Assembly (NCBI GenBank): GCA_903932045.1
Contig: CAIZES010000178.1
Location: 1-32,012 of the forward strand
Reading direction: 5' to 3'
DNA length: 32,012 nucleotides
From: an uncultured Silvanigrella sp.
GTDB taxonomy: Bacteria > Bdellovibrionota_B > Oligoflexia > Silvanigrellales > Silvanigrellaceae
Part shown: piece after piece, positions 245 to 31,867 of the stretch
How the letters are laid out: each line of letters opens with the position of its first letter
Numbering within the stretch: the stretch's first letter is position 1
Made by a program: the position numbers and the translations under genes
Notes under the pieces: model-generated
Databases searched by the model: none
Told to the model about the DNA's origin: nothing
Seen by the model: only the letters and a program-made list of their open reading frames with translations

Positions 245-306
245 GAACCCACTATGAGTCAATGGGTGCTAACATGAAATTATAGACCTGCCACCGACGG
301 AGATCC

Positions 307-5484: not shown

Positions 5485-7053
5485 ATGACTGAAAAAGAGG
5501 AAGCTGCAGTGCGTAGAAATTGGAAAACATGGACAGCAACTTTGTCTGTTGCAGCCTCCTTCTTCATGGGTTGTGGCACGTGGATTGGAAATCCGAAAGG
5601 CTCCTCGTCGCCCCCAACAGGAGGGGGATCGTCAGGATCTGGTTTCCCCGTCGACCTCATGCTGTCTTCGCCGACCGGGCAAGAAACTGCGGTTGGTCTC
5701 TCCCTGGCTGCAGCGCCCGTGAGTCAATACAAAGCCAGGAAAGAAAAGCTGTCGGCGCTCTTGAATAGCAAGGTCAAGAGCGAGTGCACGTTCGATTTGA
5801 AAATCGAAAGGGATGTTCAGAACGTGTCTTGTTTTGGACCTGAACTATTCTATCGTCACCATCCGGATGGAACGGATCGGAACCATGAGGTCGACCCTGC
5901 GACGGGGCTCTATTCATTGCCGCCTGGCGACATTGGCATCGCCAGTGCGTTGATGCCCGGCACAGGAGAGGCCTGTTCGTCAGCTCAACTCAACCAAAAA
6001 GTCGAAGGGATAGCGAGTCAGGTCAACAGCCTTATCTATTCTTTGGCTGCTGTTCATTGCGTGGCCAACAGTTCTGGGAAAAGTCTTCCCAAAGTGGGCG
6101 CAAAGCTCGACCTGACGAAAGAAACGACCGCGGCCTTCGCGAACAACCGAACGGGACTGAGTATTGTTGAAGCGTGGATCTCCCACGTGGCATCGACGGA
6201 AGCCGGCAAGACGGTGTACGAAACTCAGATTCGAGGCTCCTCCGACTCAAAATCGATCACAATATCTTTGAAACACGAGGAAAATGACGCAAAGAATCTC
6301 ACCTATCATGGGAAACTGACGTACACAATTTCCAGTCCCACCGATTCGGACACCAGTCGTTGTCCGCAGGGGGATAGCGGAAAGATGGATGCGACTTCCA
6401 TCACCTACCAGAAGGTGGGTGAGAGTGTCTTGATGCTGGAATTAAAGAGCGCAAAGTATTGCAACCAGCATGCAGATCCTTATGTCAGCGCGGTCGATCA
6501 TACCGTGGATCCTGCCAAGAAATTCAGTGGTGACGCTACGAATGGCTGGTTCAGTCATTTCAACTACGCGCTCTTCAACCTGAATACAGCGACGGACGAA
6601 GGCGACTTTCAATTTGCTTGGCAGGCAGATCCTTCGGATTTGCAGAGTCGCTCCATCAATGTTTCGATCGGTAAGGAAGGCGAGGCATTGCTCGGGACAA
6701 CGTACGTGGGTTTTGGTCCCGACGTGGCCGAACTCAATCCAGGCCAAGTGACGGGAATGATCTGCAACTGGGGCGGACCTGCTCATGACCGAACGGTGCG
6801 GCCCTTCGCTCAACGACAAATTCTGAGAAGGGAGCCTGGTGCGCTTCTTTTCTTGCCGACCGAAAGCAATATCGGATACGCGCCCACCAACAGCTGCGAG
6901 TATGTTGCGGGTTCACAGACTCCTGGCTTTGAATGGGGAACCTCGGCGAGTGTCTCGGGCGAGCATGCAACACAGATGAATGAACTGAGTGACGTCAGTG
7001 CAGGCCTTGTGGGCATCACGGTACCCAAGCAGCCCAACGATATCGAGCATTGA
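5485..7053 (+). CDS. Lipoprotein B1 (unknown function)
   Basis: A 522-residue predicted lipoprotein, 11 bases after the regulator 1 stop, so originally in one operon with it. The start is preceded by GAGAGGGTGG. The signal sequence ends in the lipobox FMGC with Cys 30, followed by GTWIGNPKG and a Pro/Ser/Gly linker. The rest is rich in beta-type sequence with scattered Cys residues (SECTFDL, VSCFGPE, AVHCVAN, KYCNQHADPY, ICNWGGP, NSCEYVAG) suggesting a disulfide-stabilised extracytoplasmic domain. It is the intact homologue of the broken gene at 11116-14117, with long identical stretches. Because IS21 separates it from the original promoter, its present expression is uncertain. No known domain was recognised. 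Confidence 0.85.
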   Translation: MTEKEEAAVRRNWKTWTATLSVAASFFMGCGTWIGNPKGSSSPPTGGGSSGSGFPVDLMLSSPTGQETAVGLSLAAAPVSQYKARKEKLSALLNSKVKSECTFDLKIERDVQNVSCFGPELFYRHHPDGTDRNHEVDPATGLYSLPPGDIGIASALMPGTGEACSSAQLNQKVEGIASQVNSLIYSLAAVHCVANSSGKSLPKVGAKLDLTKETTAAFANNRTGLSIVEAWISHVASTEAGKTVYETQIRGSSDSKSITISLKHEENDAKNLTYHGKLTYTISSPTDSDTSRCPQGDSGKMDATSITYQKVGESVLMLELKSAKYCNQHADPYVSAVDHTVDPAKKFSGDATNGWFSHFNYALFNLNTATDEGDFQFAWQADPSDLQSRSINVSIGKEGEALLGTTYVGFGPDVAELNPGQVTGMICNWGGPAHDRTVRPFAQRQILRREPGALLFLPTESNIGYAPTNSCEYVAGSQTPGFEWGTSASVSGEHATQMNELSDVSAGLVGITVPKQPNDIEH

Positions 7054-8809: not shown

Positions 8810-9838
8810 TTACGGTGCCTGAGTCACCACCGCTGGACACGCTTCGCTTTCGGTCGGGTCACCGAGACTTGCCTTTGGCGTGACGCCCACACCCAAAGCC
8901 TGCAAGCGGGCGTAGGCTTCTGCCGTTGCAGTCGCATCATAGTCAGTGACTCCCCCAATCGCACGCGACTTGCAGAACTCCGGCGCATCTTCGGCAAACG
9001 TGGCGGCGCATCCGGTGGCACCCTTTCGATAGCTCACAAACTCACCGCTGTTCCCGTCGGACGAGAGTTGCCCCAGAATATATCCATCTGCATCTTCAAC
9101 GCGCGCAGCCAAATCGCCACTGAACCAGTCCTCAACCCCACTGAAGGTGAATTCGCCTGCAGCGCTCTCCCTGGCCACAAACAGATCGGCCAGATTGCTG
9201 CCGGCTTCGCCAGCGGGAGACTTGTCCTTTTCACCGAAGAACTTTTGTGTGAACGTTTTGCCCGCGTCCGTTTCGGAATAGACCATCAGGATGCTGGAGG
9301 TCTCGGGCTGTGGCTTGTAGCGCTGATTCCGGAATGAGTAGATGTTCTTGCCATCCTCGCTCCATTTGACGACCATGTGCAGACTGCCCTTTTCACAAAC
9401 AACGAGCTTGTGGTTGTATGTGCCATCGTCAATGGCGGCGAGCGATCCGCTCTTGTCCTTGTTCGGTCCTTTGCCCGTGAACTCGCCAACCTCGCTGAAC
9501 TCGCCCTTCCACTTAACCATGTCTGCATTGAGTTTTGTAATGCGATCATTAACGCGTTCACGCGTATCTGTCAGAATATCAGCCTTGGGAACCGGCGAGG
9601 AATCCGGCGTGGGAGAGGCCGCGAGAAAAGCGGCAGGATCGGCATCATCAAGTCCAAAACTCAAGGAACTCGCAGAACCCGGAAGCAGAAAGTTGATTGA
9701 GGGAATGACAAATTCACTGCTGGCGCTTTTTGCACCACTGACCACGTTCTGGGCGTTCTTCTTGCCCGCAGCGGCACCACACGCGCCAAGAGCGATCGTC
9801 ATTCCCGTCACCACTAATGTCCGACAAAGCTTGAACAT
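8810..9838 (-). CDS. Lipoprotein A2 (unknown function)
   Basis: A 342-residue paralogue of lipoprotein A1. The start at 9838 has ACGGAGGTG upstream in the same position as in copy 1; the frame continues to 10012 without support. MFKLCRTLVVTGMTIALGAC gives a signal peptide and lipobox GAC with Cys 20. A Pro/Ser/Ala-rich linker (PTPDSSPVP) is longer than in A1, accounting for most of the extra length. The central domain (EFTGKGP, CEKGSLHMVVKWSEDGKN, SETDAGK, FSGVEDWFSGD) and the Cys pattern match A1. It diverges from regulator 2 across a region resembling that of copy 1 and probably forms an operon with gene X downstream. Confidence 0.85.
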   Translation of the reverse strand: MFKLCRTLVVTGMTIALGACGAAAGKKNAQNVVSGAKSASSEFVIPSINFLLPGSASSLSFGLDDADPAAFLAASPTPDSSPVPKADILTDTRERVNDRITKLNADMVKWKGEFSEVGEFTGKGPNKDKSGSLAAIDDGTYNHKLVVCEKGSLHMVVKWSEDGKNIYSFRNQRYKPQPETSSILMVYSETDAGKTFTQKFFGEKDKSPAGEAGSNLADLFVARESAAGEFTFSGVEDWFSGDLAARVEDADGYILGQLSSDGNSGEFVSYRKGATGCAATFAEDAPEFCKSRAIGGVTDYDATATAEAYARLQALGVGVTPKASLGDPTESEACPAVVTQAP

Positions 9839-9876
9839 GGAACACCTCCGTTCAAAAATCGTGTCAACTCCGCCAA
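9836..9876 (-). promoter_or_regulatory. Conserved leader of lipoprotein A2 (copy 2)
   Basis: Identical over 41 bases to 1445-1485 upstream of lipoprotein A1, while the flanking intergenic sequence differs at many positions. Contains the ribosome binding site and TTGACACGATTTTTGAACGG just before it on the minus strand. Confidence 0.55.
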
Positions 9877-10162
9877 CCATCACCTCAACCGCGGTGAAGT
9901 GGCACCCGCGAGGGGAGGTTTCTTTCTCTCCCCTCACTTTACTGTACGGAACTTGTGCCTGGCACTTTAATTTGGCTTGCAACATACCAATACAACGACC
10001 AATAATTTTCAAAGTTACAAAGGAGGAATCGTGGTCCGCACCCGAGTTTGTCAGGTGCCAACAATTATTGATAAAAGCAGATGAGGGTGCGCACCACGCA
10101 GATGGCGTCTCGCCTCATCACGCTTATCTACCGGTGATCGCAAGTGCTTTTACTGCTCACTC

Positions 10163-10199
10163 AATACATTCTATAAAGATCCGTTCATACAAATAGGGG
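10163..10199 (+). promoter_or_regulatory. Likely promoter of TIGR02147 regulator 2
   Basis: TATAAAGATCCGTT (-10-like TATAAA at 10172-10177) with the following CAAATAGGGG matches the block upstream of regulator 1. No clear -35 is seen. Confidence 0.5.
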
Positions 10200-10230
10200 A
10201 GAGGGAAGCGCCCTCAGGAGGACCAACGCC

Positions 10231-11103
10231 GTGACGACCAAACCACTCGCGCAACTGAAACAAGCCGCCGCAAAGAACAAGGTCGACACATTTTTCGACT
10301 ACCGAGACTATCTCAAGCAAATCTATCTCACTGTCAAAGCGAAGGACCAAGGCTATTCCTGGCTGAAGTTCGCATCTGATCTTGGTTTTTCCGCAACGAA
10401 TGTGGTCCGCTTGATCGTCATTGGCAAGCGACATCTCCCAAGCGAGGCCGCAGAGCAGGTGGGTACCCATCTTGGCCTGGCAAACCACGAACGTCGCTAT
10501 TTTCTCAACCTCGTGGCATACAACGAAGCGCACACCTCCGCCGAGCAAGAGCAAAGCCTGGGTCGCCTGGTCGCAAGCAAGCAGGCTCTGCTGGATTCAA
10601 GTCCCGACAGTCAGGCTCTCCGCTACTATTCCAAGTGGTATTTTCCGGTCATCCGGGAAATGACCAGACTCGGCGGATTTCAGGCCACCTTTGAGTGGGT
10701 CAGTCGTCACCTTTTTCCATCATTACGGCCGGCCCAATTTAATGAGGGCATCGAACTTCTGCGAGAAATGAAGCTCCTTGAAGTGGAGCCAGTCACGGGG
10801 ATCGTCAAGTTTCTCGACAATCGCCAAATGGTTCTCCCCACGGACGCGACAGCCGGCAACATCGCCATCAGTCAATATCATCGAAAAATGCTTGAAGTGG
10901 CGGCCGAAGCGGTGTTCAAAATCCCAGATTCGGATCGCGAAATGAATGCCTTGACTCTGTGTCTGTCCGACGAATCGTTCGCCAAACTGAAGCAGCGAAT
11001 TCTCGATGTGTGTGCCGAGGCCATGCAGACAGAAAGCGAACCGCAGGCACGAGAGAGACTTGTTCAGCTCAATGTTCAACTATTCACTCTGTCCAAGAAA
11101 TGA
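10231..11103 (+). CDS. TIGR02147-family regulator, copy 2, intact
   Basis: A 290-residue protein with a GTG start after CAGGAGG. The N-terminal third (DYRDYLKQIYLTV, GYSWLKFASDLGFSATNVVRL, GKRHLPSEAAEQV, NHERRYFLNLVAYNEA) is the helix-turn-helix-like region of the TIGR02147 family. The C-terminal DUF4423 part has SKWYFPVIREMTRL, FDNRQMVLPTDATAGN-type sequence, SQYHRKMLEVAAEAV and the tail RLVQLNVQLF. The family is abundant in Fibrobacter and Bdellovibrio and is thought to be regulatory; targets are generally unknown. It is divergent from lipoprotein A2 and 12 bp upstream of lipoprotein B2, so it most likely controls this module. As the only undamaged copy in the element it may now serve both modules. 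Confidence 0.88.
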   Translation: MTTKPLAQLKQAAAKNKVDTFFDYRDYLKQIYLTVKAKDQGYSWLKFASDLGFSATNVVRLIVIGKRHLPSEAAEQVGTHLGLANHERRYFLNLVAYNEAHTSAEQEQSLGRLVASKQALLDSSPDSQALRYYSKWYFPVIREMTRLGGFQATFEWVSRHLFPSLRPAQFNEGIELLREMKLLEVEPVTGIVKFLDNRQMVLPTDATAGNIAISQYHRKMLEVAAEAVFKIPDSDREMNALTLCLSDESFAKLKQRILDVCAEAMQTESEPQARERLVQLNVQLFTLSKK

Positions 11104-11630: not shown

Positions 11631-13052
11631 GGGTGCGGCCTCCATTTGATGTCCGGACCTGAACACGAACGGAGCCCTACACATGTTGAATGCTATCGGA
11701 TTCATGCCACAAGAGGAAAGCCGCTGCTGTCAATTTTTTGCCAGAACTGTGCCCACCGTCCCGTGGTATACGAAAGGGTTCTCAAACTCAGAACAGCCGC
11801 AGCCCCCTGCTCTTTCCATCGCATGCCAGAGCCACAGAGCCGCTGTTTGACGATCACCTTGCATGCAGCCTCGGTGATTCCTGAGCCGATGGGAAGGTTT
11901 TCTTCGACGTGTTCAGCATAATTCATGCGCTTTTTCTGATTTGTAAAATAGGTGATGCAGTCATCGAGCAGTTCCCGGCGCTCTTGGCCGATGTGGCGAC
12001 TCCGAAGCTCCTTCATTTCGCGGAGAAGGGCTGCTGGGCCTGTTCGGTTGTGTTTGAGCCGATGGCAAGCATCATCCAGCCAAGCTTTTCGCTCCTCGGG
12101 ACTCTTGAAGAACACCGCATCGGCCGCCTTTGTGAGGTACTCACTGGCGTGATAGAAGTCGAGCAGTTGACGGTCTGTGTGCTTCTCAAGAAATGGCCAG
12201 TTATCCCTCGCACCGTCGGCCAATCCAATGAATATCGCTCTGGGAAATAGGGCATGCACGCGAGAAATTTCTCGTTCCATTCGCTCGATGAAGGTCTCTT
12301 TCCCATACTCTGGGGTGGCGCCCAGGTAGATGGTATGCAGCCTCTCCCCATCATTGGAGTGCAAAGCAATCGTTCCTACCATCGCCTGGCGCCAGCCATC
12401 TTTAACAGTCAGCATGCACGTGCCATCAATACCTATGCTCACCGCATTGACAGGTTGCTCCTGAGTTGGAGTCTCGTACTCCCAGCTCTCTTCGGTTGCT
12501 TGCGCAACTGCTGCAACAGCATCGGCAATGTTCTGAACAAATGAACGGGCAACTTTGCGCCCATGGTTCTCTTCCAGATCAATGGTGACCCGCCCTGCTC
12601 CATGCTCGGCATACTTATGGGACAGCTGCTTGGCAAACAGTGGAGTCGCCGAAAGGAGTATTCGTGCGTTTTGCTCCAATGGGCAGAAGGTTTTTCCTCC
12701 CTTGCCGGTCTGATAAACGTGACGTGGCACGGTCACTTCACCATAGGGGGTCTGATACGCGCAGTCGACCTCGCCCTTCGAGGTCATCGACACACTCCCA
12801 AACCGTATCGGCTCACCGGAGGTGTCGAAGCGCTTGAGAAGAATCTCCGTGGCCGTAACACCTGCCTCGTTCAGGGCGGACTGAATTCGCGCCTCGGACT
12901 CCAGCATTGATGAGTTCCATTCGATCTCTATCTGGACGACTGTCTTCTTTGACGATGATGATATGATTCGAGCAGTCATTGCGCCTCCTGCAGAAGTGCA
13001 GCAGGCTATCATGAGATTTACTGGAAGTCTACATCAAATGGAGGTCGCACCC
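11631..13052. mobile_element. ISKra4-family-like insertion sequence, 1422 bp
   Basis: Terminal inverted repeats of 22 bp (11631-11652 and 13031-13052) start GGGTGCG and end CATTTGATGT, with one mismatch. The element is flanked by an 8-bp direct repeat and encodes a single intact transposase on the minus strand. Family placement rests on the transposase C-terminus. Confidence 0.9.
11702..12979 (-). CDS. ISKra4-family transposase
   Basis: A 425-residue transposase. The start at 12979 has AGGAGG 4 bases upstream (CGCA spacer). Likely catalytic residues are Asp in SIGIDGTCM, Asp in IGLADGARDNW and Glu in LPIGSGITEAACK. The C-terminal block KQRLCGSGMRWKEQGAAAVL with TTGRWAQFW is typical of ISKra4-type enzymes. 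The reading frame is whole, so the IS may still move. It is oriented opposite to the lipoprotein gene it interrupts. Confidence 0.9.
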   Translation of the reverse strand: MTARIISSSSKKTVVQIEIEWNSSMLESEARIQSALNEAGVTATEILLKRFDTSGEPIRFGSVSMTSKGEVDCAYQTPYGEVTVPRHVYQTGKGGKTFCPLEQNARILLSATPLFAKQLSHKYAEHGAGRVTIDLEENHGRKVARSFVQNIADAVAAVAQATEESWEYETPTQEQPVNAVSIGIDGTCMLTVKDGWRQAMVGTIALHSNDGERLHTIYLGATPEYGKETFIERMEREISRVHALFPRAIFIGLADGARDNWPFLEKHTDRQLLDFYHASEYLTKAADAVFFKSPEERKAWLDDACHRLKHNRTGPAALLREMKELRSRHIGQERRELLDDCITYFTNQKKRMNYAEHVEENLPIGSGITEAACKVIVKQRLCGSGMRWKEQGAAAVLSLRTLSYTTGRWAQFWQKIDSSGFPLVA

Positions 13053-16539: not shown

Positions 16540-16643
16540 GAAAGTACACATAATAGCCCTTATGTGTACTTTCCGTCCCCTTTCAGCTACATTATGTGCA
16601 CCAATGATGGGTCCCAACCCAGGAGGCAAAAGTGCACATAATG
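16540..16643. other. Predicted cointegrate resolution site (IRS/dif-like) of the transposon
   Basis: The core at 16540-16573 is GAAAGTACACATAA, spacer TAGCCC, then the perfect complement TTATGTGTACTTTC (14-6-14). The inner ATAA/TTAT edges and 6-bp spacer match Xer/dif-type cores. Two further related half-sites follow: TTATGTGCAC at 16592-16601 and GTGCACATAA at 16632-16641, each one base different from the core arm. A core plus two accessory motifs next to a tyrosine recombinase gene is the plan of the TnpI/IRS site of Tn4430. The last motif overlaps the recombinase start codon, so binding would also repress its gene. Confidence 0.75.
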
Positions 16644-17555
16644 TTCAAACGGAAAAGCCTGGCGCTCCCGGAGCTGCTCCGAGCGTTCGAGTCTGACCTC
16701 CGGCAAAGCGATGCCGCCGACCGGACGGTGGCAAGCTATCTGTCGGACCTGCGCCTCTTTGCTGCGTGGCTTGAGGGGGTCATCCCTGGCGCGGCAGAGG
16801 ACCTCGATGCCTTCACGCTCCAGCGCTACCGCTCCCACCTCGACCACACCGAAAAACGAGCAACGAGCACCACCAATCGGAAGCTGCAGGCCATCCGCCG
16901 TTTTTGTGCGTGGGCGTACAAAACTGGTGAGATGCTCTCGAACCCCGCTCTCGACGTGAAATTGAAACCCCAGCCAAGGATCTTTCAGCCTCGGAGCCTG
17001 GCAACGCCCGACATTCACAAGGTCTTGACCATTGCGGGGCGCGGATCTCACGGACCGCGCAACTACGCTCTCGTACAACTGATGCTTCAAACAGGGCTCC
17101 GGGTAGGTGAAGTGGAGCGTCTTGTCGTTGACGACATCGCCATTCACGATCGGTCTGGTCACGTGCGGGTGCGAGACGGCAAAGGACGAAAAGAGCGCAC
17201 CGTCCCCTTGAATGCGAGCGTGCGAAAAGCCCTCACAGCCTGGCTCCAGGAGCGAAGTCTCACCGTTCCGCAAGAGCCCTCGGTTTTCGTGACCACGACT
17301 GGCAAAGGACTCAAGAAGCGGGCTCTTCAGAAGGTGATTTCTGAGCTCATGACCACCGCTGGTTGTTCGGCTTCGGCGCACACCCTGCGCCACACCTTTG
17401 CCACGAGGCACTACCAGGATCACGGCAAACTCGTCGAGCTTTCAGGACTCCTCGGCCATGAGTCCCTCAACACGACGGCTCGCTACACTCAGCCAACCCA
17501 CGATGATCTTGCTCGCCAGCTTGAGAAAAGCTCTCTGAATGAATTTGGAGATTGA
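16632..17555 (+). CDS. Tyrosine recombinase, probable cointegrate resolvase of the transposon
   Basis: A 307-residue tyrosine recombinase. The GTG start at 16632 lies 5 bases after AGGAGG; an ATG at 16641 is the alternative. The N-terminal SAM-like DNA-binding domain covers about residues 10-105. The catalytic set is complete: Arg157 (GLRVGE), Lys184 (GKGRKE), His250 and Arg253 (HTLRHTFAT), His276 (LLGHES) and Tyr285 (TARYTQ). It resembles XerC/D-type enzymes. It occupies the place of tniR in Tn5053 and follows directly on a dif-like site with accessory motifs, so resolving TniA-made cointegrates is the most economical role. Its 3' end overlaps the tniQ 3' end on the other strand by 89 bp. 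Confidence 0.88.
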   Translation: MHIMFKRKSLALPELLRAFESDLRQSDAADRTVASYLSDLRLFAAWLEGVIPGAAEDLDAFTLQRYRSHLDHTEKRATSTTNRKLQAIRRFCAWAYKTGEMLSNPALDVKLKPQPRIFQPRSLATPDIHKVLTIAGRGSHGPRNYALVQLMLQTGLRVGEVERLVVDDIAIHDRSGHVRVRDGKGRKERTVPLNASVRKALTAWLQERSLTVPQEPSVFVTTTGKGLKKRALQKVISELMTTAGCSASAHTLRHTFATRHYQDHGKLVELSGLLGHESLNTTARYTQPTHDDLARQLEKSSLNEFGD

Positions 17556-21560: not shown

Positions 21561-21565
21561 CCTGG
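21561..21565. repeat. Target-site duplication, right copy (CCTGG)
   Basis: Matches 307-311 exactly. The reconstructed empty site reads GATCCCCTGGGGTACCAC. Confidence 0.9.
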
Positions 21566-21703: not shown

Positions 21704-21733
21704 ACTATCGGATAATGGGTGTTATCCGATAGT
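21704..21733. other. dif-like core recombination site of the flanking element
   Basis: ACTATCGGATAA, spacer TGGGTG, TTATCCGATAGT: a perfect 12-6-12 inverted repeat. The ATAA/TTAT inner edges and the 6-bp spacer match the E. coli dif layout (11-6-11). It lies about 120 bp upstream of a two-gene operon whose second gene is a tyrosine recombinase, so it is probably that enzyme's crossover site. Confidence 0.75.
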
Positions 21734-21824
21734 GTGTGACTGAATGGTAATACGAGTGTGTTGTGTTTACGCGTTTACATGTGATAAGATGTAGGTGATG
21801 TGATCGACGTTTTGCCAAAAATTG

Positions 21825-21851
21825 CCCCTCCGAAGGGGTGAAGGAGCCCCT
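21825..21851 (+). promoter_or_regulatory. Mutually exclusive hairpins over a ribosome binding site
   Basis: CCCCT (21825-21829) can pair with AGGGG (21834-21838), leaving the ribosome binding site AAGGAG free. Alternatively AGGGG can pair with CCCCT (21847-21851), putting AAGGAG in the loop. Translation of the next gene could be tuned by which forms. A promoter with TTGTGT and TAAGAT boxes upstream is plausible. Confidence 0.35.
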
Positions 21852-22694
21852 ATGAGCACCCCCCAAAGCCCCCGCGACAGCGAGGTCATCAGCCTCCGCA
21901 CCAGCGCCGATTTCAAAAACCGCCTGCGGGAGTGGGCCGACGGCCGCGGCATCCCGATGTCGAGGCTCCTCGAAGAGATGGGCGAACTCTACGCCCGCGC
22001 CGAAGCGGGAGCCGAACGGAAGCTCTCCGCGGTGGAACTCCTCCTCCGACCCCACTTCCAAACCATCGAGCGGGAGCTGAGCCGAGCGTTTGACGAGTCC
22101 GAAGGGAAGGGGAACCTTTTCCGGGAAGAGGCCGAAGCCCTGCGGGGGGCGGCGGACAGGGCAGAACTTCGTCACAAGGAGGAACGAGCGGCCTGGGAGA
22201 TCGAGCGGCAGAGTCTTAGAGAGAAGGCCGACACGGCAGAACGAACCCTCGCCACCGAGCGGGAAGCTCGGGTGGTGGCCGAGCGCCAGGCCCGCGAGGC
22301 AACCGACACCGCTCGGGCGCTCACGACCTCCCTCTCGGAAGCTCGAAACCAGATTGAGGAGCTGAAGGTGCAGGTCGTGGGACTTCCGGCACTCCGGAAA
22401 GAGCGGGACGCCATGTCTGCCGAGAGCCACAAGTTGGCGGTGGAGCGGGAAAGCGCCGAACTCTCCCTGGCGCGGGTCCGGGAAGATTTCCTCCGCGAGA
22501 AGGAGGCCGTGAAACGGGGGGACGACGCCCACAGCCGCGAACTCCAGGCGATGGAGCGCGAGTTTGAGGCCCGCGTCGCCAAGGCGCAGCTCGACTTAGA
22601 GCGGAGCCACCTGCAAAAAACCGCCGAGCTGGAGCGCCAGATCCAAACCCTCCAAGGGCAGGTGAGCCGCCTGGGTGAAGGGACGACGCCATGA
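21852..22694 (+). CDS. Coiled-coil protein with small N-terminal DNA-binding-like domain (KfrA-like?)
   Basis: A 280-residue protein, start at 21852 after AAGGAG. The first 45 residues (SEVISLRTSADFKNRLREWA, then GIPMSRLLEEMGELYAR) look like a ribbon-helix-helix DNA-binding unit. From about residue 60 to 275 it is a long, highly charged coiled coil rich in Glu, Arg and Ala (AEALRGAADRAELRHKEERA, VVAERQAREATDTARALTTS). Small DNA-binding head plus long coiled coil is the build of KfrA-type plasmid proteins, although sequence identity is not claimed. Its stop overlaps the start of the tyrosine recombinase (ATGA), so both are made together; it may help organise the dif-like site, act in partition, or repress the operon. 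Confidence 0.75.
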   Translation: MSTPQSPRDSEVISLRTSADFKNRLREWADGRGIPMSRLLEEMGELYARAEAGAERKLSAVELLLRPHFQTIERELSRAFDESEGKGNLFREEAEALRGAADRAELRHKEERAAWEIERQSLREKADTAERTLATEREARVVAERQAREATDTARALTTSLSEARNQIEELKVQVVGLPALRKERDAMSAESHKLAVERESAELSLARVREDFLREKEAVKRGDDAHSRELQAMEREFEARVAKAQLDLERSHLQKTAELERQIQTLQGQVSRLGEGTTP

Positions 22695-23677
22695 GCGACG
22701 TGCTCGTGCCGGAGATTGTCGAGAGCACCGGCGCCCTCGTCCACGGCGAGGCGGACGCTCACTTGCAGAGGCTCGTCACCGAGTGGCTTCTCACCTGTGG
22801 GGGCGCCGAAACACGGAAAGCCTACGGGGGAGATTTTCGGGAGTTCTGCGTGTTTGTGGAGAAGGGGTTTGGGCGCATCACCTGGGACGCGGTGACTGGA
22901 ATAGGGGCTTCGGCGTTTGCGGCCTGGCTCAAGAACCGGCTCGAACAGCGCGAGATTGCCCCCGCCACCGCCGCGCGAAAGCTCGCGAGCGTGAGCGCGT
23001 TTTTGGAATTCTGCGTGACCCGAGGCGATCTCCAAAGGAACCCCCTCGCCAAAGTGAAACGCCCCAGGGTTCCCAAGCAACCCAAAAGCGCGGTGCTCTC
23101 GGACGACGAGGTGCGGAAATTGCTTGCGGTGATTGGCGCTGAGCGCGAAGAGGCCGAGAAGGGCAAACTCCTCGCACCCGTCAGGGCGGCGCGGTTTAAT
23201 GAGGTGGTTTTTAAGACACTGCTTGGGACTGGGTGCAGGATTTCGGAACTGTTGGCGCTCCGGGTGTGCGATGTGGAACTCTGTGGGGAGCTGGGGCGAC
23301 TGCATTTTCGGTGCAAAGGATCAGAGGATCACAGCGTCGCTGCGCCACGTTCTCTTGCGGAATGCGTTCTAGAGTTCGCGCGATTCGCTGGTGTGAACGG
23401 TGACAAAGAGTGCGTGTTTTTGTTTGCGAACACCAAGGAGTCGGCAGAAAAACGGATTGGGCGGGAGCTTGTGCGGCTATGCAAGAAGGTTGGGATCGAG
23501 AAAGAAGTGACGCCCCATGTGCTTCGTGCCACCGTGGCCACGTCGCTCCATGAGAAAGGTGTACCCGTGGTACACATCCAGCGGCTCCTCAACCATAAGG
23601 ATATTTCGACGACAGCGGTGTACATTCGGAGAGTTGACACCGAGGGTAATGCGGCATCTTTGGACTTATCTTGGTAG
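22691..23677 (+). CDS. Tyrosine recombinase (XerC/D-like) of the flanking element
   Basis: A 328-residue recombinase with a SAM-like N-terminal core-binding domain (about residues 20-120) and a complete catalytic set: Arg183 (GTGCRISE), Lys209 (RCKGSE), His276 and Arg279 (TPHVLRATVAT), His302 (LLNHKD) and Tyr311 (TAVYIRR). The C-terminal helix after the nucleophile is short. It differs clearly from the transposon recombinase. The dif-like site 1 kb upstream and the coupled coiled-coil gene suggest a resolution or integration unit of a plasmid, integrative element or island. The GC content falls after it. Confidence 0.88.
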   Translation: MSDVLVPEIVESTGALVHGEADAHLQRLVTEWLLTCGGAETRKAYGGDFREFCVFVEKGFGRITWDAVTGIGASAFAAWLKNRLEQREIAPATAARKLASVSAFLEFCVTRGDLQRNPLAKVKRPRVPKQPKSAVLSDDEVRKLLAVIGAEREEAEKGKLLAPVRAARFNEVVFKTLLGTGCRISELLALRVCDVELCGELGRLHFRCKGSEDHSVAAPRSLAECVLEFARFAGVNGDKECVFLFANTKESAEKRIGRELVRLCKKVGIEKEVTPHVLRATVATSLHEKGVPVVHIQRLLNHKDISTTAVYIRRVDTEGNAASLDLSW

Positions 23678-25584: not shown

Positions 25585-28317
25585 CTACTTCCACCCCTGC
25601 GTCAGTGCTCTCAGTTTTTCACGTTTATCAAGAACATCAGCACATGATTCCCAATCAACGTTTTTGACTTCACTAAATCGCAACTCAAAAGGATGCTTCT
25701 TTTCCGCGAGATCATTTATGCGCTTCTTGGCTTCTTCGCGCTCACCCAATGCAACTTCGATCCACGCATCTTCAAGCACATCCGGAACCTGTCCAAAAAG
25801 ATCTAGGATATTTTTTAAACGTTCAGAAAGAAGCTCATGAACTCTGTCTTCAACCGAGTCCTTGTAGCGCAGATTACATACACGGACCTCGTCCAGCGCT
25901 TGTCCCATTCGCTGAATTCGTCCCTTTCTCTGCTCAAGTCGTGTTGGATTCCATGGAAGGTCAACGTTAATCAGGGTGCCCAGTGTTTGCAGATTTAAAC
26001 CTTCACTGGCAGCATCGGTGCCAACTAGAAGTCTTACTTTATGATTTGTGACGAGCTTTTTGATTTCGTCTCGCGATCTTGGAGTGAATATTCCGTTCTC
26101 GACAATTCTTGACTTATTTCCGCCCGCGTAGATCGCAACCATCTGCTCTGGAAATAGCTGAGAGATATGCCTTGCTACCAGTTCAGCAGTATCAAAATAT
26201 TGCGAAAACAGTATGCAGCCTGATTCTATCCATGGCTGTGTTCCATCAAGGCCCTCAGCAAGGACATCTCTAACGAAATTAATTTTTGGGTCTTCAAAAC
26301 GATACTCGTTGAGGATATTAAGAAACTTTTCAAGAACTTCCTTCTCATTGTCAAGAAGTTCTATTGATTGTTCACCAGATTGTTCTTCAAACTCTTCATC
26401 CTCAATATCTGTGCTGGATGCAGGCGCTCCCGACTGAATGCCGATGAGTTTTTTTGCCGTGTTCATTCCAGCAATAATTGAACTTCCCAAACGACGAAGA
26501 AGCATCGTTTTCAGAAACCCAACACTGTTTTTGCGCATTCCAAGTAGACGGGAAAACTCCTCCGCAAGCTCGTATGCTTCTCTCAAGTATATCGGAAGTG
26601 GAATGGCTTTTTCATAGAGATCGACTCTGATGGGCTTCAAAAATCTCTGTCCTGTAGTTGGATCGATTTGGTCTTGCAAATACTCTCGTGTTCTACGAAT
26701 TATGCTTCGAATAAATGGATTATACATACGTGCAAAGCTCGGCCTAATTCGGTTAAGTCTTTGCTTCAATGCGGCATCAGATTCAAATCGAGCGTCATGC
26801 TGAATCACAGCGTCTGCATCTTTGACCCCATACCTTGTCAGTTGTCGGCGTACAGCGTCAAAATCAGTTCCCTCGTCTCTCGCCGGAAATGGATTTCTAA
26901 TGATCGGCCAATAAGAAAGAAGATCTGCCGGTAATTCCTGTTGTCCAAGCGTTAGCGTAAGCGCATCTCCTGCGCTACGCCAGATACTGGCAGAGTTTCC
27001 GAGCACGTTTTCCCCTTTGCGGGCCAGCGCATCCAGAAGATCCCATGCCTCTATAGGATTGATTTGTACCGGAGTAGCAGTTGCCAAAAGAAGGCTATGT
27101 GACCGCGCCGATATCTGCTGAACGAATCTGAGCAGGTTGTTTGGTTCAGCGGTTTCACTTGCGGCATCCGGACCAAGACGTCTTCGACGCGACCGATGAG
27201 CTTCATCCACAATGACAAGTTCATAGCTTGTTTGAAGCAAGATCTCCGCAGCAGGTGAGCCACTTGTGATTAACCCTTGCGATACAACGCCAATTCTACG
27301 CGGACACGAAAGAATTCCTTCCAAACCGGAACAGGGATATTCGAGTCCATTTTCGTCCACCCAGTTTCGCCCAGTCCAAACCGCTGACGGCAGACTGATA
27401 AGTGTCATCATCTCTGCCTGCCATTGTTCAAGGAGTGTTCTCGGAGCAAGAATCAGAATCGGTCTATTGCCATTCAAAGCCGCAATGGCAGCTACTGCTG
27501 CAAGTTGTATCGTCTTTCCGAGTCCAACTGCATCTGCAAGAACTAAGCGGGCACCATGTGAGGACAAGTGCAGTTCTGATGCTTTTTTTATAAAGTATTT
27601 CTGATGTGGTGCGAATCCAAATGATTCTCGATACACTGGTTCCTCAATAAAAATGGAGGCAGGTTCAGGATTCTCTTTCCACTTTTCAACAGACTTGATT
27701 ACTTTTCGTCGAGATATTCTTTCAACATCTTCCAAAATGAAACGACATTGACTTAATGGGATAGCCCTCGCATCGTTCCACAAAGCTTCAAACTCATCCT
27801 CAACCCACTTCACAGATTCCTCAGAGTCATCCTCCCAAAGTAGCTCGTAATTCATTTCCCAAGCATCACGAGTTTCGTTTACGCTGCCAAGAAAAGATAG
27901 GCTATTCTTAGCTTTGTATCTGATGACACCTGCTTTTCCATGTATCAATCCAAAAACATCCGACGGAAGCACTTTTACAATTATTTTTTCGCTAATTAGA
28001 AGATGATAAAGCTTTTCAAAGCGAGATGAACCCTTATTTTCTGCAACGAGTTCTGGATTTGAGTTACACCATTCTCTCCGTAATGCAATCTCTGCAGTTC
28101 GTACATCCTGAGTATTTAGCTGCGAATTACAGACCACTCGCACTTGTCCAGTAACATTTTCGATCGCTTCTCCGGCGATTTCCAGAAGAGATGACGTGAA
28201 GTATCCAGCGATTCGGTCGTACGATTCAGCACCAGCTAAGCGCTTAATGAGATAGTCTTGAGCTAGACATCTCTCTGTTCTCCGTGATGAAAATCTCGAA
28301 ATCGCCATTTCCGTCAT
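25585..28317 (-). CDS. PLD-like nuclease/SNF2 helicase, anti-phage type
   Basis: About 910 residues. The ATG at 28317 follows GGGAG closely; a TTG at 28329 and an ATG at 28308 are alternatives. Residues about 15-190 form a phospholipase D-like domain with AGYFTSSLLEIAGEAI and the half-motif HGKAGVIRYKAKN...GSVNET. The helicase core follows: ADAVGLGKTIQLA (motif I), VIVDEAHRSRRRR (motif II), ATATPVQ (motif III), and in the second lobe TDAASEGLNLQT and LPWNPTRLEQRKGRIQRMGQ (motifs V-VI). Proteins of this build recur with DUF1156 methylases and DUF3780 proteins in defence islands, where they are predicted to recognise or degrade foreign DNA. It starts 25 bp after the methylase stop. Confidence 0.85.
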   Translation of the reverse strand: MTEMAISRFSSRRTERCLAQDYLIKRLAGAESYDRIAGYFTSSLLEIAGEAIENVTGQVRVVCNSQLNTQDVRTAEIALRREWCNSNPELVAENKGSSRFEKLYHLLISEKIIVKVLPSDVFGLIHGKAGVIRYKAKNSLSFLGSVNETRDAWEMNYELLWEDDSEESVKWVEDEFEALWNDARAIPLSQCRFILEDVERISRRKVIKSVEKWKENPEPASIFIEEPVYRESFGFAPHQKYFIKKASELHLSSHGARLVLADAVGLGKTIQLAAVAAIAALNGNRPILILAPRTLLEQWQAEMMTLISLPSAVWTGRNWVDENGLEYPCSGLEGILSCPRRIGVVSQGLITSGSPAAEILLQTSYELVIVDEAHRSRRRRLGPDAASETAEPNNLLRFVQQISARSHSLLLATATPVQINPIEAWDLLDALARKGENVLGNSASIWRSAGDALTLTLGQQELPADLLSYWPIIRNPFPARDEGTDFDAVRRQLTRYGVKDADAVIQHDARFESDAALKQRLNRIRPSFARMYNPFIRSIIRRTREYLQDQIDPTTGQRFLKPIRVDLYEKAIPLPIYLREAYELAEEFSRLLGMRKNSVGFLKTMLLRRLGSSIIAGMNTAKKLIGIQSGAPASSTDIEDEEFEEQSGEQSIELLDNEKEVLEKFLNILNEYRFEDPKINFVRDVLAEGLDGTQPWIESGCILFSQYFDTAELVARHISQLFPEQMVAIYAGGNKSRIVENGIFTPRSRDEIKKLVTNHKVRLLVGTDAASEGLNLQTLGTLINVDLPWNPTRLEQRKGRIQRMGQALDEVRVCNLRYKDSVEDRVHELLSERLKNILDLFGQVPDVLEDAWIEVALGEREEAKKRINDLAEKKHPFELRFSEVKNVDWESCADVLDKREKLRALTQGWK

Positions 28318-28341
28318 TCTCCCTAGCAACTATTATTTGGT

Positions 28342-31275
28342 CTAAACTGAGTCTTGTTCTAGTAGTCCAGCAATCAGTTTTGCAGCATCAGCATCCGCTG
28401 TCCAATGTGAAAGAGGCGCACATTTGTTAGATATGTATCGTAGAATTGCTATCAACGTTTGCCGCGAATCCCAATATTGTCCTTCGAGTGTTTCTTTTAG
28501 GTGATCCTTACCTTTTCCCGCTCTCTCTTCGCTGACGGCAATAAAAATTGAGAGAAGACACTTGCGCACCAGTGTGTTTCCAAATCCATCCGATTCAAGA
28601 ACTTTTCGCTTCATTTCACTTGCGGTCAGAAGTCTGGCCGCATTTGGTTTTGTTGATTGAAACAGTGAAGAATAGTCCTTGGCACCAAGCGTTCTCGCCA
28701 ATTCTTGAAATGATGAATTCTTCAGATCTCCCTTGACTTCCAATTCAAGTCCCCGCAGAAAATATCTTTCGATTGGAGTCAGTCTTGCCCAACATGACTT
28801 GGAGAAACCAGCAGGGATGAGTTGTTCAGAGGCGATCTTGACAGCCTGTGCGATAACGTTTGCAACGGTGTTTGTTAGATGCTCGTTTGCAAGAGCTTCC
28901 TGAACATGCACCCCTTCAATGACTGCAGCATTAGTCAAAACTCTCAACGCTCCAGAATATGCGGAGAGCTGAAAATCGAGATCTGTAAAGACGGATTCAG
29001 ATGAGTCCACATCAATTGCCTGCATTTCCTTTACTGTTTTTCTGACTTCATCCTCGACTTTGGTAATAATTTCATCCGCAAATATTTCTTCGCTGCCAGA
29101 TCTCTTTCTAAGGAGAAGACAAACAGTACCCTTAACGTGATTGCCGTGATCTCGACCAAGCGCCTCTGTCTCTGTTGCAACACACCAGGCATTTACAACT
29201 TGAAGTCCTGATGCCCACAGAATCAAACAAAGATCAGCCCAAACTGCGGGATTCTGATGAGTAAACATGACAATTTGGATACCATTGCTTTGGGTATTGG
29301 TCACCAGATTTGAATACACTTCAGTCATAGATTGACGAAACCCAGTACCGACACCTTTGACTGCTAGTGCAGATTTTGTGTCGCATGTCCAACTTGGGAA
29401 GCTTCGCTTCAGGAGAGCGGGAAGAAAGCGTAGGAACAATTCCGTAATTTCGTGGTATTGAACCGCGTCAGCATAGGGTGGATCGGTAATCCACAAATCG
29501 CACTGCGTGCGAATTTCACGCGCATCTACACACTCGACAGTACCCGAAAAGTTTCGATCATTCGCTTTCAAAGAAAGCTCACCGCACGAAATTAAGGTGC
29601 TCATGCCTCTCGATGCATAATTATACAAGGTGTTTAAAGCCTTGTTGTCGGTTGAATCCTTGCTGCTGCTATCCTTGGGATTCCACCTACAAAGTCGTGA
29701 GTTCCAGTTCGACAGCTTCCCAATTGTCAGAGCCGCAACACCCGAACTGACATCGTCACTCTTCGTTTGGAGAAACATTTCACATAGTGTTCCAAGTGTC
29801 AGGAGCTGCCTAGGATTGAACAAATGATGCCAGTGAGTCCAACCTCGCTCACGAGGTAGTCGATCCGTCTCTGCACCTGACTCAACTTTTCCAGACGGAA
29901 TTATACCCCTCGTTTGCCAATCTATAAAACGTTCAGATAGAAGGTTTTCTACAATAGCCTCTCGTTTGAGATCTCCATCTGTCACTGCGCAATAGTGGCG
30001 AACACTTCGCTCCTTCTTTCCATTCTTGATCGGCTCAACCCATCTAATGCAGTACATCCGCTCCTGAAGGATATCCGTTTCTCTCGGTGTGATGTCGTTA
30101 TTGTCCCACATTCTAAGACCATATTTCTTGCTGCCATCATTGAGTCGATTATCGCCACGAAGTCCTGATATTTCGAATGTCTCCCCTGTTTTTGGACACA
30201 CAAGTTTGCCGTTTTTGACTGTTCCACTCGCAGCGGTTTTCATTTGTTCATCAGATGCATTCTCAATTATGATTATGTCATAGGTTTTCTTTGCTTTGTT
30301 CTCTTTGAGAACTGCACAAACTTTGCTTTTTTCGCTGATCACCCATGATGGAGCAAGTGGAACGAGGAGTCCGCTTGCAGGGCACACAGTTTGGAAGCAA
30401 TATAGAAAGACATCCGCTCTCCAGCCCTTTTCGTTGTGCTCGATGCCCCATTTCGCGATTTGCTTGTCGACCTTTCTGAATACATCCAATTGTGTAGCAA
30501 CTGTTGTTTGGCGTAGTTCCTTAGTTCCACCAATCAGAGTGAGAGATGCCCACGTGAGAAGTGCAGCAAGGGGATTGATATCGGCACCGTAGGCATTGCA
30601 TCCAATGCGAGCCGCTTCAAAGGTGATACTTCCTCCCCCACAGAATGCATCACCCACGGATGGTTTGTGTCCAAAGCGTCTATAGCCAAGCTCGTCCACC
30701 AGATCTGGAATGGACTTTGCGCTAGTTCCAAGGTGGGCATTGATAACTTTCCAAGACTCTGAACTTGGACCATCGATTTCCTCAGGTCTGCAACAGAACT
30801 CTAGCTTTTCGTCGTAGTTCATAAGAAAGAATACTTTCTTTTCAGCTTCTTCTCTCTTAACTTGCGAAAGCCCCTCAAGCCAATGCGGATTTGACAAAGA
30901 CGAATTGGCTGCGAAGTACCGATTTCTCTCAATGGCCGACGGCAGTTTTTGAAAAATTAATTGGACTGGTAGTGATTTTCTTTTTCTTCTCCACAGACCA
31001 TCATTGTCCATGGTAAGAATTCGGAGGAAAACTTCACGATCCATCCGCGAGTCAATTGATGCAGGCACTAATGATGAAATTATCAAGCTTCGAACAAGAA
31101 TCAGTTGTTTTCGTCCCCACCATTTCCCAATGTTCGTAAGTGTTTGTCCAGAACGCGCCTCTTTTTCTTTGTAATTTTCTTTAGAAATCAGGGACGCCGG
31201 GAATTGAACTTCAAGAAACGATTTTGCAAGTGCGTTCGGCATTGATTCGATCTTCTTTGCAGCGTTGCTAGCCAT
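28342..31275 (-). CDS. DUF1156 DNA methyltransferase (adenine-specific type, anti-phage associated)
   Basis: A 977-residue protein; the start has AAGGAG upstream. The N-terminal DUF1156 part includes NIGKWWGRKQLILVRSLII (about residues 47-66). SAM-binding motif I is VGDAFCGGGSITFEAARIG (around residues 207-225), and the catalytic motif is TDPPYADAVQY at about 596-606, the DPPY type of amino-methylating enzymes. Cys pairs in YCFQTVCPASGLLVPL may bind a metal. Such very large methylases accompany DUF3780, an ATPase and a PLD-helicase in predicted defence systems, where methylation likely marks self DNA. The gene seems intact. Confidence 0.88.
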   Translation of the reverse strand: MASNAAKKIESMPNALAKSFLEVQFPASLISKENYKEKEARSGQTLTNIGKWWGRKQLILVRSLIISSLVPASIDSRMDREVFLRILTMDNDGLWRRKRKSLPVQLIFQKLPSAIERNRYFAANSSLSNPHWLEGLSQVKREEAEKKVFFLMNYDEKLEFCCRPEEIDGPSSESWKVINAHLGTSAKSIPDLVDELGYRRFGHKPSVGDAFCGGGSITFEAARIGCNAYGADINPLAALLTWASLTLIGGTKELRQTTVATQLDVFRKVDKQIAKWGIEHNEKGWRADVFLYCFQTVCPASGLLVPLAPSWVISEKSKVCAVLKENKAKKTYDIIIIENASDEQMKTAASGTVKNGKLVCPKTGETFEISGLRGDNRLNDGSKKYGLRMWDNNDITPRETDILQERMYCIRWVEPIKNGKKERSVRHYCAVTDGDLKREAIVENLLSERFIDWQTRGIIPSGKVESGAETDRLPRERGWTHWHHLFNPRQLLTLGTLCEMFLQTKSDDVSSGVAALTIGKLSNWNSRLCRWNPKDSSSKDSTDNKALNTLYNYASRGMSTLISCGELSLKANDRNFSGTVECVDAREIRTQCDLWITDPPYADAVQYHEITELFLRFLPALLKRSFPSWTCDTKSALAVKGVGTGFRQSMTEVYSNLVTNTQSNGIQIVMFTHQNPAVWADLCLILWASGLQVVNAWCVATETEALGRDHGNHVKGTVCLLLRKRSGSEEIFADEIITKVEDEVRKTVKEMQAIDVDSSESVFTDLDFQLSAYSGALRVLTNAAVIEGVHVQEALANEHLTNTVANVIAQAVKIASEQLIPAGFSKSCWARLTPIERYFLRGLELEVKGDLKNSSFQELARTLGAKDYSSLFQSTKPNAARLLTASEMKRKVLESDGFGNTLVRKCLLSIFIAVSEERAGKGKDHLKETLEGQYWDSRQTLIAILRYISNKCAPLSHWTADADAAKLIAGLLEQDSV

Positions 31276-31288
31276 ATTTCAACACTCC

Positions 31289-31867
31289 TTAGTTTTGAAT
31301 TCTTATCGTGGGTGCCGAATATGGCTGGGCCAATTCATAGCTACCAACATTACTATTTGACCTGTTGCAGAGCGCAATTTGAATCGCAAGCTTCCATCCT
31401 GAATCTTTCGTTCCAAGATCCGATGATGCCATATTAAATAGCCACCAACGCTCTTCAGAAGTAAGCCCAGACCATCTTTCGATGGCAGAGGAGACTTCAC
31501 AAGCATGAGCATTCTCTACCGCCCAAACGAGCAGGCACAACTCTTTTCCCAAGAGTCGTGGAATCAAATTCAGACCACTGGAAAACCGAATGTTTTTCGC
31601 ATTAGACTTCTCTTTCAGTTTAATTTCGCGCGCAAATGAAGGCAAAATATCCTCCCAGATCGAGACAGGAAGACTCGCTAAAGTCTTCGCCTGTTTATCA
31701 CTAGTGAGAGGTCGATCATTTGTTGGCAAAAGAAAGCATTCCCGTATCTCAACCAAAGCATCTGAATTTGACTGTCCAGGGATAGATACTTGGAAGTGGT
31801 GCTGGTCACCATCTGCTAAGAACCCAAAGCGACACGATGCTGGTATTCTTCTCGTAGTCATAATCAT
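31289..31867 (-). CDS. DUF3780 protein, anti-phage associated
   Basis: A 192-residue protein with the family hallmarks: FGFLADGDQHHFQVSIPGQS near the N-terminus, then RLLGKELCLLVWAVENAHAC and SGLTSEERWWLFNMASSDLG towards the C-terminus. The start overlaps the stop of the preceding gene as ATGA, and the methylase follows after 13 bp. The function is unknown; it occurs almost only next to DUF1156 methylases, so it is probably a complex subunit. Confidence 0.82.
   Translation of the reverse strand: MIMTTRRIPASCRFGFLADGDQHHFQVSIPGQSNSDALVEIRECFLLPTNDRPLTSDKQAKTLASLPVSIWEDILPSFAREIKLKEKSNAKNIRFSSGLNLIPRLLGKELCLLVWAVENAHACEVSSAIERWSGLTSEERWWLFNMASSDLGTKDSGWKLAIQIALCNRSNSNVGSYELAQPYSAPTIRIQN

Follow-up and report, generated by a model that had tools for sequence, protein, structure and literature searches.

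A candidate resolution module composed of a palindromic site, a coiled-coil protein gene and an Xer-like tyrosine recombinase gene, located beside a TniA/TniB/TniQ transposon

A palindromic site and a two-gene operon encoding a coiled-coil protein and a tyrosine recombinase occupy positions 21704 to 23677 of the stretch of DNA analysed here (32,012 nucleotides; hereafter the window). We estimate, with a probability of roughly two in three, that they form a resolution module of a mobile replicon, which would act in cis, by site-specific recombination, to resolve multimers or cointegrates. This reading is favored by a perfect and unique inverted repeat, a complete recombinase, toxin-antitoxin neighbors such as are also found at many homologous loci, and the existence of a comparable system, TnpS-TnpT-rst, in which a tyrosine recombinase and a coiled-coil helper act with a cis site to resolve cointegrates. 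The source replicon is represented by a fragment within a 503-contig assembly, so that the contig is no more than a putative plasmid sequence.

The putative recombination core site (21704 to 21733, no strand assigned) has the sequence ACTATCGGATAA TGGGTG TTATCCGATAGT. Its 30 bp comprise two arms that are complementary at 12 of 12 positions, separated by a 6-nucleotide spacer, and this perfect repeat, with the dif-type inner edges and spacer length that the sequence-only reading had described, is indeed present. The two half-sites follow the ATAA-N6-TTAT pattern of dif sites, although their symmetry is unlike that of XerCD dif. No second match to the core was found in the window with three mismatches allowed (none were expected, based on 100 shuffles), and the genome assembly has no second full copy, while one lone 12-nucleotide arm occurs elsewhere in it, which is about the expected number. 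The exact core is absent from viral contigs, and no DNA-level relatives of the operon locus were found in plasmids. A possible degenerate copy resides at 251 to 280 (+ strand), and is weak: 19 of 30 positions are identical, including the whole spacer (AATGGGTG), with p ~0.01 in shuffles. In the empty site, before a transposon inserted between the two, it preceded the core by 199 bp. Second core copies near homologous sites are not a feature of the recombinase family, and are absent at most other loci.

The recombinase gene (22691 to 23677, + strand) encodes 328 amino acids with a Phage_integrase domain (E = 5.6e-24). The R...K...HxxR...H...Y residues are all present in the alignment, so that the protein is catalytically complete as judged by its residues. 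It is a short, Xer-like enzyme in which no arm-binding domain was detected, and it scores below the curated NCBIfam cut-offs for XerD (127 bits versus 329.6), XerC (122 versus 335) and XerA (127 versus 220). A decayed fragment on contig C408 of the same genome (L050:7037-7210) is 86% identical to the operon recombinase over 58 residues, and a fragment of a close relative in a second genome from the family is 62.5% identical over 40 residues. The fragments show that modules of this type arrived and were lost within this bacterial family, which agrees with an origin in mobile elements.

Homologous recombinases are frequently preceded by the same kind of site. We surveyed 16 loci, consisting of 14 plasmid loci, one locus in a genome of the same family, and the window; the recombinases of the other loci are 25-40% identical to that of the operon and mostly plasmid-borne. 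A site was defined by 11-nucleotide arms with at most one mismatch, a 6-nucleotide spacer, AA/TT inner edges, and a location at most 1.3 kb upstream, and three of the loci were known before this rule was set. Sites occur at 10 of the 16 loci, compared with 0.017 loci expected from dinucleotide shuffles; the remaining six have no detectable site. The downstream stretches of the 16 loci yielded no sites (0/16), nor did 28 relatives from whole genomes, which are mostly chromosomal Xer-type (0/28). Examples are found in Citrobacter IncX5 (aagtggtgataa AATAGG ttatcaccactt), Methylomonas (ttaggtcctataa TCTATT ttataggacctaa), Lichenicola (agcacgtgataa TCCAGT ttatcacgtgct) and Polaromonas (tcaaccattgataa AAACGG ttatcaatggttga). 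When another gene precedes the recombinase gene, the site is usually ahead of that gene, as in Citrobacter, P. putida, Polaromonas, and the window. Moreover, similarity among outer arms tracks similarity among recombinases (r = 0.69, Mantel p = 0.0015), in a set of 12 sequences of which several are closely related. Both the co-occurrence and the co-variation of palindrome and recombinase, which the sequence-only reading had proposed as a check on its claim, are thus observed; a lack of conservation of the palindrome near homologous operons, which it had named as grounds for giving up the claim, was looked for and did not occur. A reverse search with one arm type (GGTGATAA-N6-TTATCACC) found no match in 383 genomes. 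Two viral matches with a longer arm (TGGTGATAA) are within or at the start of coding genes, have no recombinase, and were dismissed as chance.

These loci also bear on the idea that the palindrome serves just as an operator, for the coiled-coil protein or in a promoter region, with no link to recombination. The palindrome does lie 118 bp before the start codon of the coiled-coil gene, and a ribbon-helix-helix protein could bind such a sequence. However, the same kind of site is found ahead of recombinases that have no coiled-coil gene (in Methylomonas, Lichenicola and P. amygdali), and those sites share the dif-type inner edges and the fixed 6-nucleotide spacer, which makes a purely operator function very improbable.

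The coiled-coil protein (21852 to 22694, + strand, 280 amino acids) starts with an ATG at 21852, and its ORF overlaps that of the recombinase in the sequence ATGA. In its predicted structure, a small helical N-terminus precedes long helices (60-220 and 225-276). The N-terminal ~55 amino acids resemble a ribbon-helix-helix pattern, but this assignment stays conjectural, as the single-sequence model has a pLDDT of 65 and a fold search returned no match. Thus, the ATGA coupling, the coiled coil and the complete recombinase of the earlier description all hold. Domain and family profile searches placed the protein in no family above its cut-off, and searches of plasmids, viral contigs and 58 genomes from the class detected no homologs. 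Other loci have in its place a gene for a GNAT protein, DUF4160/DUF2442, toxin-antitoxin genes, or nothing. The coiled-coil protein is therefore not a conserved part of the module, and the self-contained recombination unit that had been envisaged is retained for the dif-like site and its recombinase, but not for the coiled-coil protein as their general or defining partner. Nothing favors the suggestion that this protein functions in partition, as ParA or centromere-like iterons were not seen beside the operon, and we discarded it.

The sequence-only reading had also called a coiled-coil partner unusual, although there is a precedent in Tn4651, whose TnpT has been described as assisting the tyrosine recombinase TnpS (PMC7157771). 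The TnpS-TnpT-rst systems for cointegrate resolution in Tn4651 (pWW0) and relatives combine a tyrosine recombinase, a DNA-binding coiled-coil helper and a cis site. Also, the gap between tnpT and tnpS in Tn4651 contains an imperfect inverted repeat, ATAA-TGGAGTG-TTAT (ATAATGGAGTGTTAT), near to the ATAA-TGGGTG-TTAT of the window (ATAATGGGTGTTAT), and AbiEi-like genes are nearby in both cases. However, TnpT has a KfrA_N domain (E = 2.6e-26) as well as a coiled coil, and KfrA_N is missing from the protein in the window. The tnpS and tnpT genes are divergent with the site between them, whereas the genes in the window are co-directional with the site upstream of both, and TnpS is only 24% identical to the operon recombinase. 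The coiled-coil protein would work most like TnpT, but because KfrA_N is missing and the gene order differs, it is at best an analogue and not a member of that system.

The symmetric arms suggest that a single recombinase binds twice, and it would occupy both identical arms as a homodimer. Two sites carried by a replicon dimer, or by a transposition cointegrate, would then form a synapse, and strand exchange across the TGGGTG spacer would split the molecule into monomers. TnpI-like accessory half-sites are absent at the operon core, where the best extra half-site matches at 7 of 11 positions, so something else must favor direct repeats on one molecule, and the coiled-coil protein is the obvious candidate. 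Produced from the same transcript, it would most likely bind nearby DNA through its N-terminus and hold or order the synapse, as is proposed for TnpT with TnpS. Since its gene has no homolog, this role is suggested by position and analogy. Crossover at the core, resolution as the purpose, and help from the coiled-coil protein are all what we infer.

Integration of elements is a common activity of tyrosine recombinases that have a core nearby, and the operon might instead move an element between an attP-like core and att sites in a chromosome or plasmid. The degenerate copy that shares the spacer, 199 bp away in the empty site, could be read in this way. However, without a second full core in the genome there is no attL/attR pair, the short recombinase has no detected arm-binding domain, and most homologous loci are on replicating plasmids with one site each. 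The presence of just one full site in the genome assembly speaks against an integrated element and in favor of intermolecular resolution of dimers or cointegrates, and we regard an integrase system as unlikely.

Among known systems, the resolution module that we propose fits the plasmid Xer-like recombinases exemplified by IncX5 Citrobacter, Pseudomonas, Polaromonas, Methylomonas and Lichenicola, since the recombinase is homologous and a 6-nucleotide-spaced inverted repeat of the same kind lies within ~1.3 kb upstream. Identity to these proteins is 25-31%, and the place between site and recombinase is taken by a different partner gene or by none. Single-recombinase Xer systems (XerS/difSL, XerH/difH and XerA/dif) similarly use one recombinase and dif-like inner edges, and for XerS and XerH the site is near the gene; by comparison, the arms of the operon site are fully symmetric, and the gene is of an accessory plasmid type rather than a chromosomal resolvase. 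TnpI-IRS (Tn4430 and Tn5401) also has a single tyrosine recombinase and an inverted-repeat core in cis, but the operon site has no accessory half-sites like DR1 and DR2.

Much of the window upstream of the module belongs to a Tn5053/Tn402-like transposon of 21,249 bp (312 to 21560, no strand assigned), with terminal and subterminal TCAGAAGA repeats. Its ends, TGTCAATGTCAGAAGAGGGTGGCAA and TGTGAATTTCAGAAGACGGTGACAA, are flanked by 5-bp target-site duplications, CCTGG, at 307 to 311 and 21561 to 21565. The operon is outside the transposon, which on its right side stops 143 bp short of the core site, and the transposon is inserted beside the module rather than part of it. An AbiEi_4 antitoxin-like gene that is cut by the contig end (1 to 225, - strand, E = 7e-10) was the divergent neighbor of the operon before this insertion. 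The sequence-only reading overlooked the transposon, which separates the site region from the gene that originally flanked the site, and also a second palindrome of the same type within it. Two stretches of cargo are duplicated (515 to 2674 and 8810 to 11103), such that a lipoprotein-like gene and an adjacent regulator-like gene (1841 to 2674 and 10231 to 11103) each occur twice. Further cargo includes a gene for 522 amino acids (5485 to 7053), and a second copy of it is split by an ISKra4-type insertion at ~11702 to 13012.

The transposon resembles Tn5053, Tn402 and Tn6048 in having TniA (46% identical to that of Tn6048), TniB, TniQ, terminal repeat arrays, a 5-bp duplication, and a location beside a putative resolution-type site. 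However, these relatives carry a serine resolvase, TniR, with a res site, and here the place of tniR is occupied by a TnpI-like tyrosine recombinase gene (16632 to 17555, + strand). Ahead of this gene is a perfect 12-6-12 inverted repeat that extends slightly on both sides (16542 to 16571, no strand assigned; AAGTACACATAA TAGCCC TTATGTGTACTT), accompanied by extra half-sites at 16592 to 16602 (- strand) and 16631 to 16641 (+ strand), with matches of 10/11 and 9/11, an arrangement like TnpI/IRS. Thus, it is the recombinase and site of the transposon (16542 to 17555) that fit TnpI-IRS. Among the best plasmid relatives of this recombinase are TnpI-like enzymes that are coupled to transposases of the Tn3 family. 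Some elements of the Tn5053 clade and some clade-3 Tn7-like elements are known to carry tyrosine resolvases (PMC8649781). A Desulfosarcina Tn3-family transposon (L068:5836-9856) combines a TnpI-like recombinase with a 15-6-15 core site, and a degenerate second copy of the core (23/30) lies downstream.

Relatives of Tn5053 favor resolution sites that are occupied by their recombinase (PMC7765201), and IS1202-family elements target dif sites (PMC10132070). The insertion 143 bp from the core agrees with such "res-site hunting", and its position is suggestive, but it is a single case that could equally be a coincidence. By a simple coordinate estimate, the chance of an insertion within ~145 bp of the only such site is of the order of 7e-5 in the 4.2-Mb genome, or 0.03 within the 10.8-kb flanks. 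On the other hand, the tniA end faces the recombinase gene, the opposite of the canonical orientation, in which known res-site hunters are inserted with their cargo end closest to the resolvase gene (PMC7765201; pAKD16), and our limited survey revealed no second example. Two Chelativorans plasmid recombinases beside TniA were considered, but they are 86% identical with similar flanks, and so are part of that element. No tyrosine-recombinase target was seen near TniA relatives in two genomes (G006 and G011) or a TniQ relative on a Pigmentibacter plasmid, and serine TniR homologs are near two of these.

Taken further, Tn5053-type TniA/B/Q transposons with a tyrosine resolvase may seek out the sites of tyrosine recombinases, just as relatives with a serine resolvase seek serine res sites, and the operon may represent a class of plasmid resolution modules, widespread but so far unnamed, in which a palindromic, 6-nucleotide-spaced site and an Xer-like recombinase recruit unrelated helpers, here a coiled-coil protein; we offer this combined proposal as a tentative one that is rather doubtful at present. 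With the adjacent transposon, the choice of targets near tyrosine-recombinase sites becomes testable. The authors of one survey stated that they were unable to tell which families resolve plasmid multimers or cointegrates (PMC3414803), and many plasmid-borne tyrosine recombinases lack an assigned role. A rule that looks upstream of the operon for a 6-nucleotide-spaced inverted repeat with AA/TT inner edges is a means to name sites and test such enzymes, and the coiled-coil partner would be a second, independently built helper alongside TnpT.

Near the module, positions 25585 to 31867 encode a Phospholipase-D/SNF2 helicase anti-phage protein, a DUF1156 anti-phage-associated protein, and a DUF3780 gene, and constitute a defence island.
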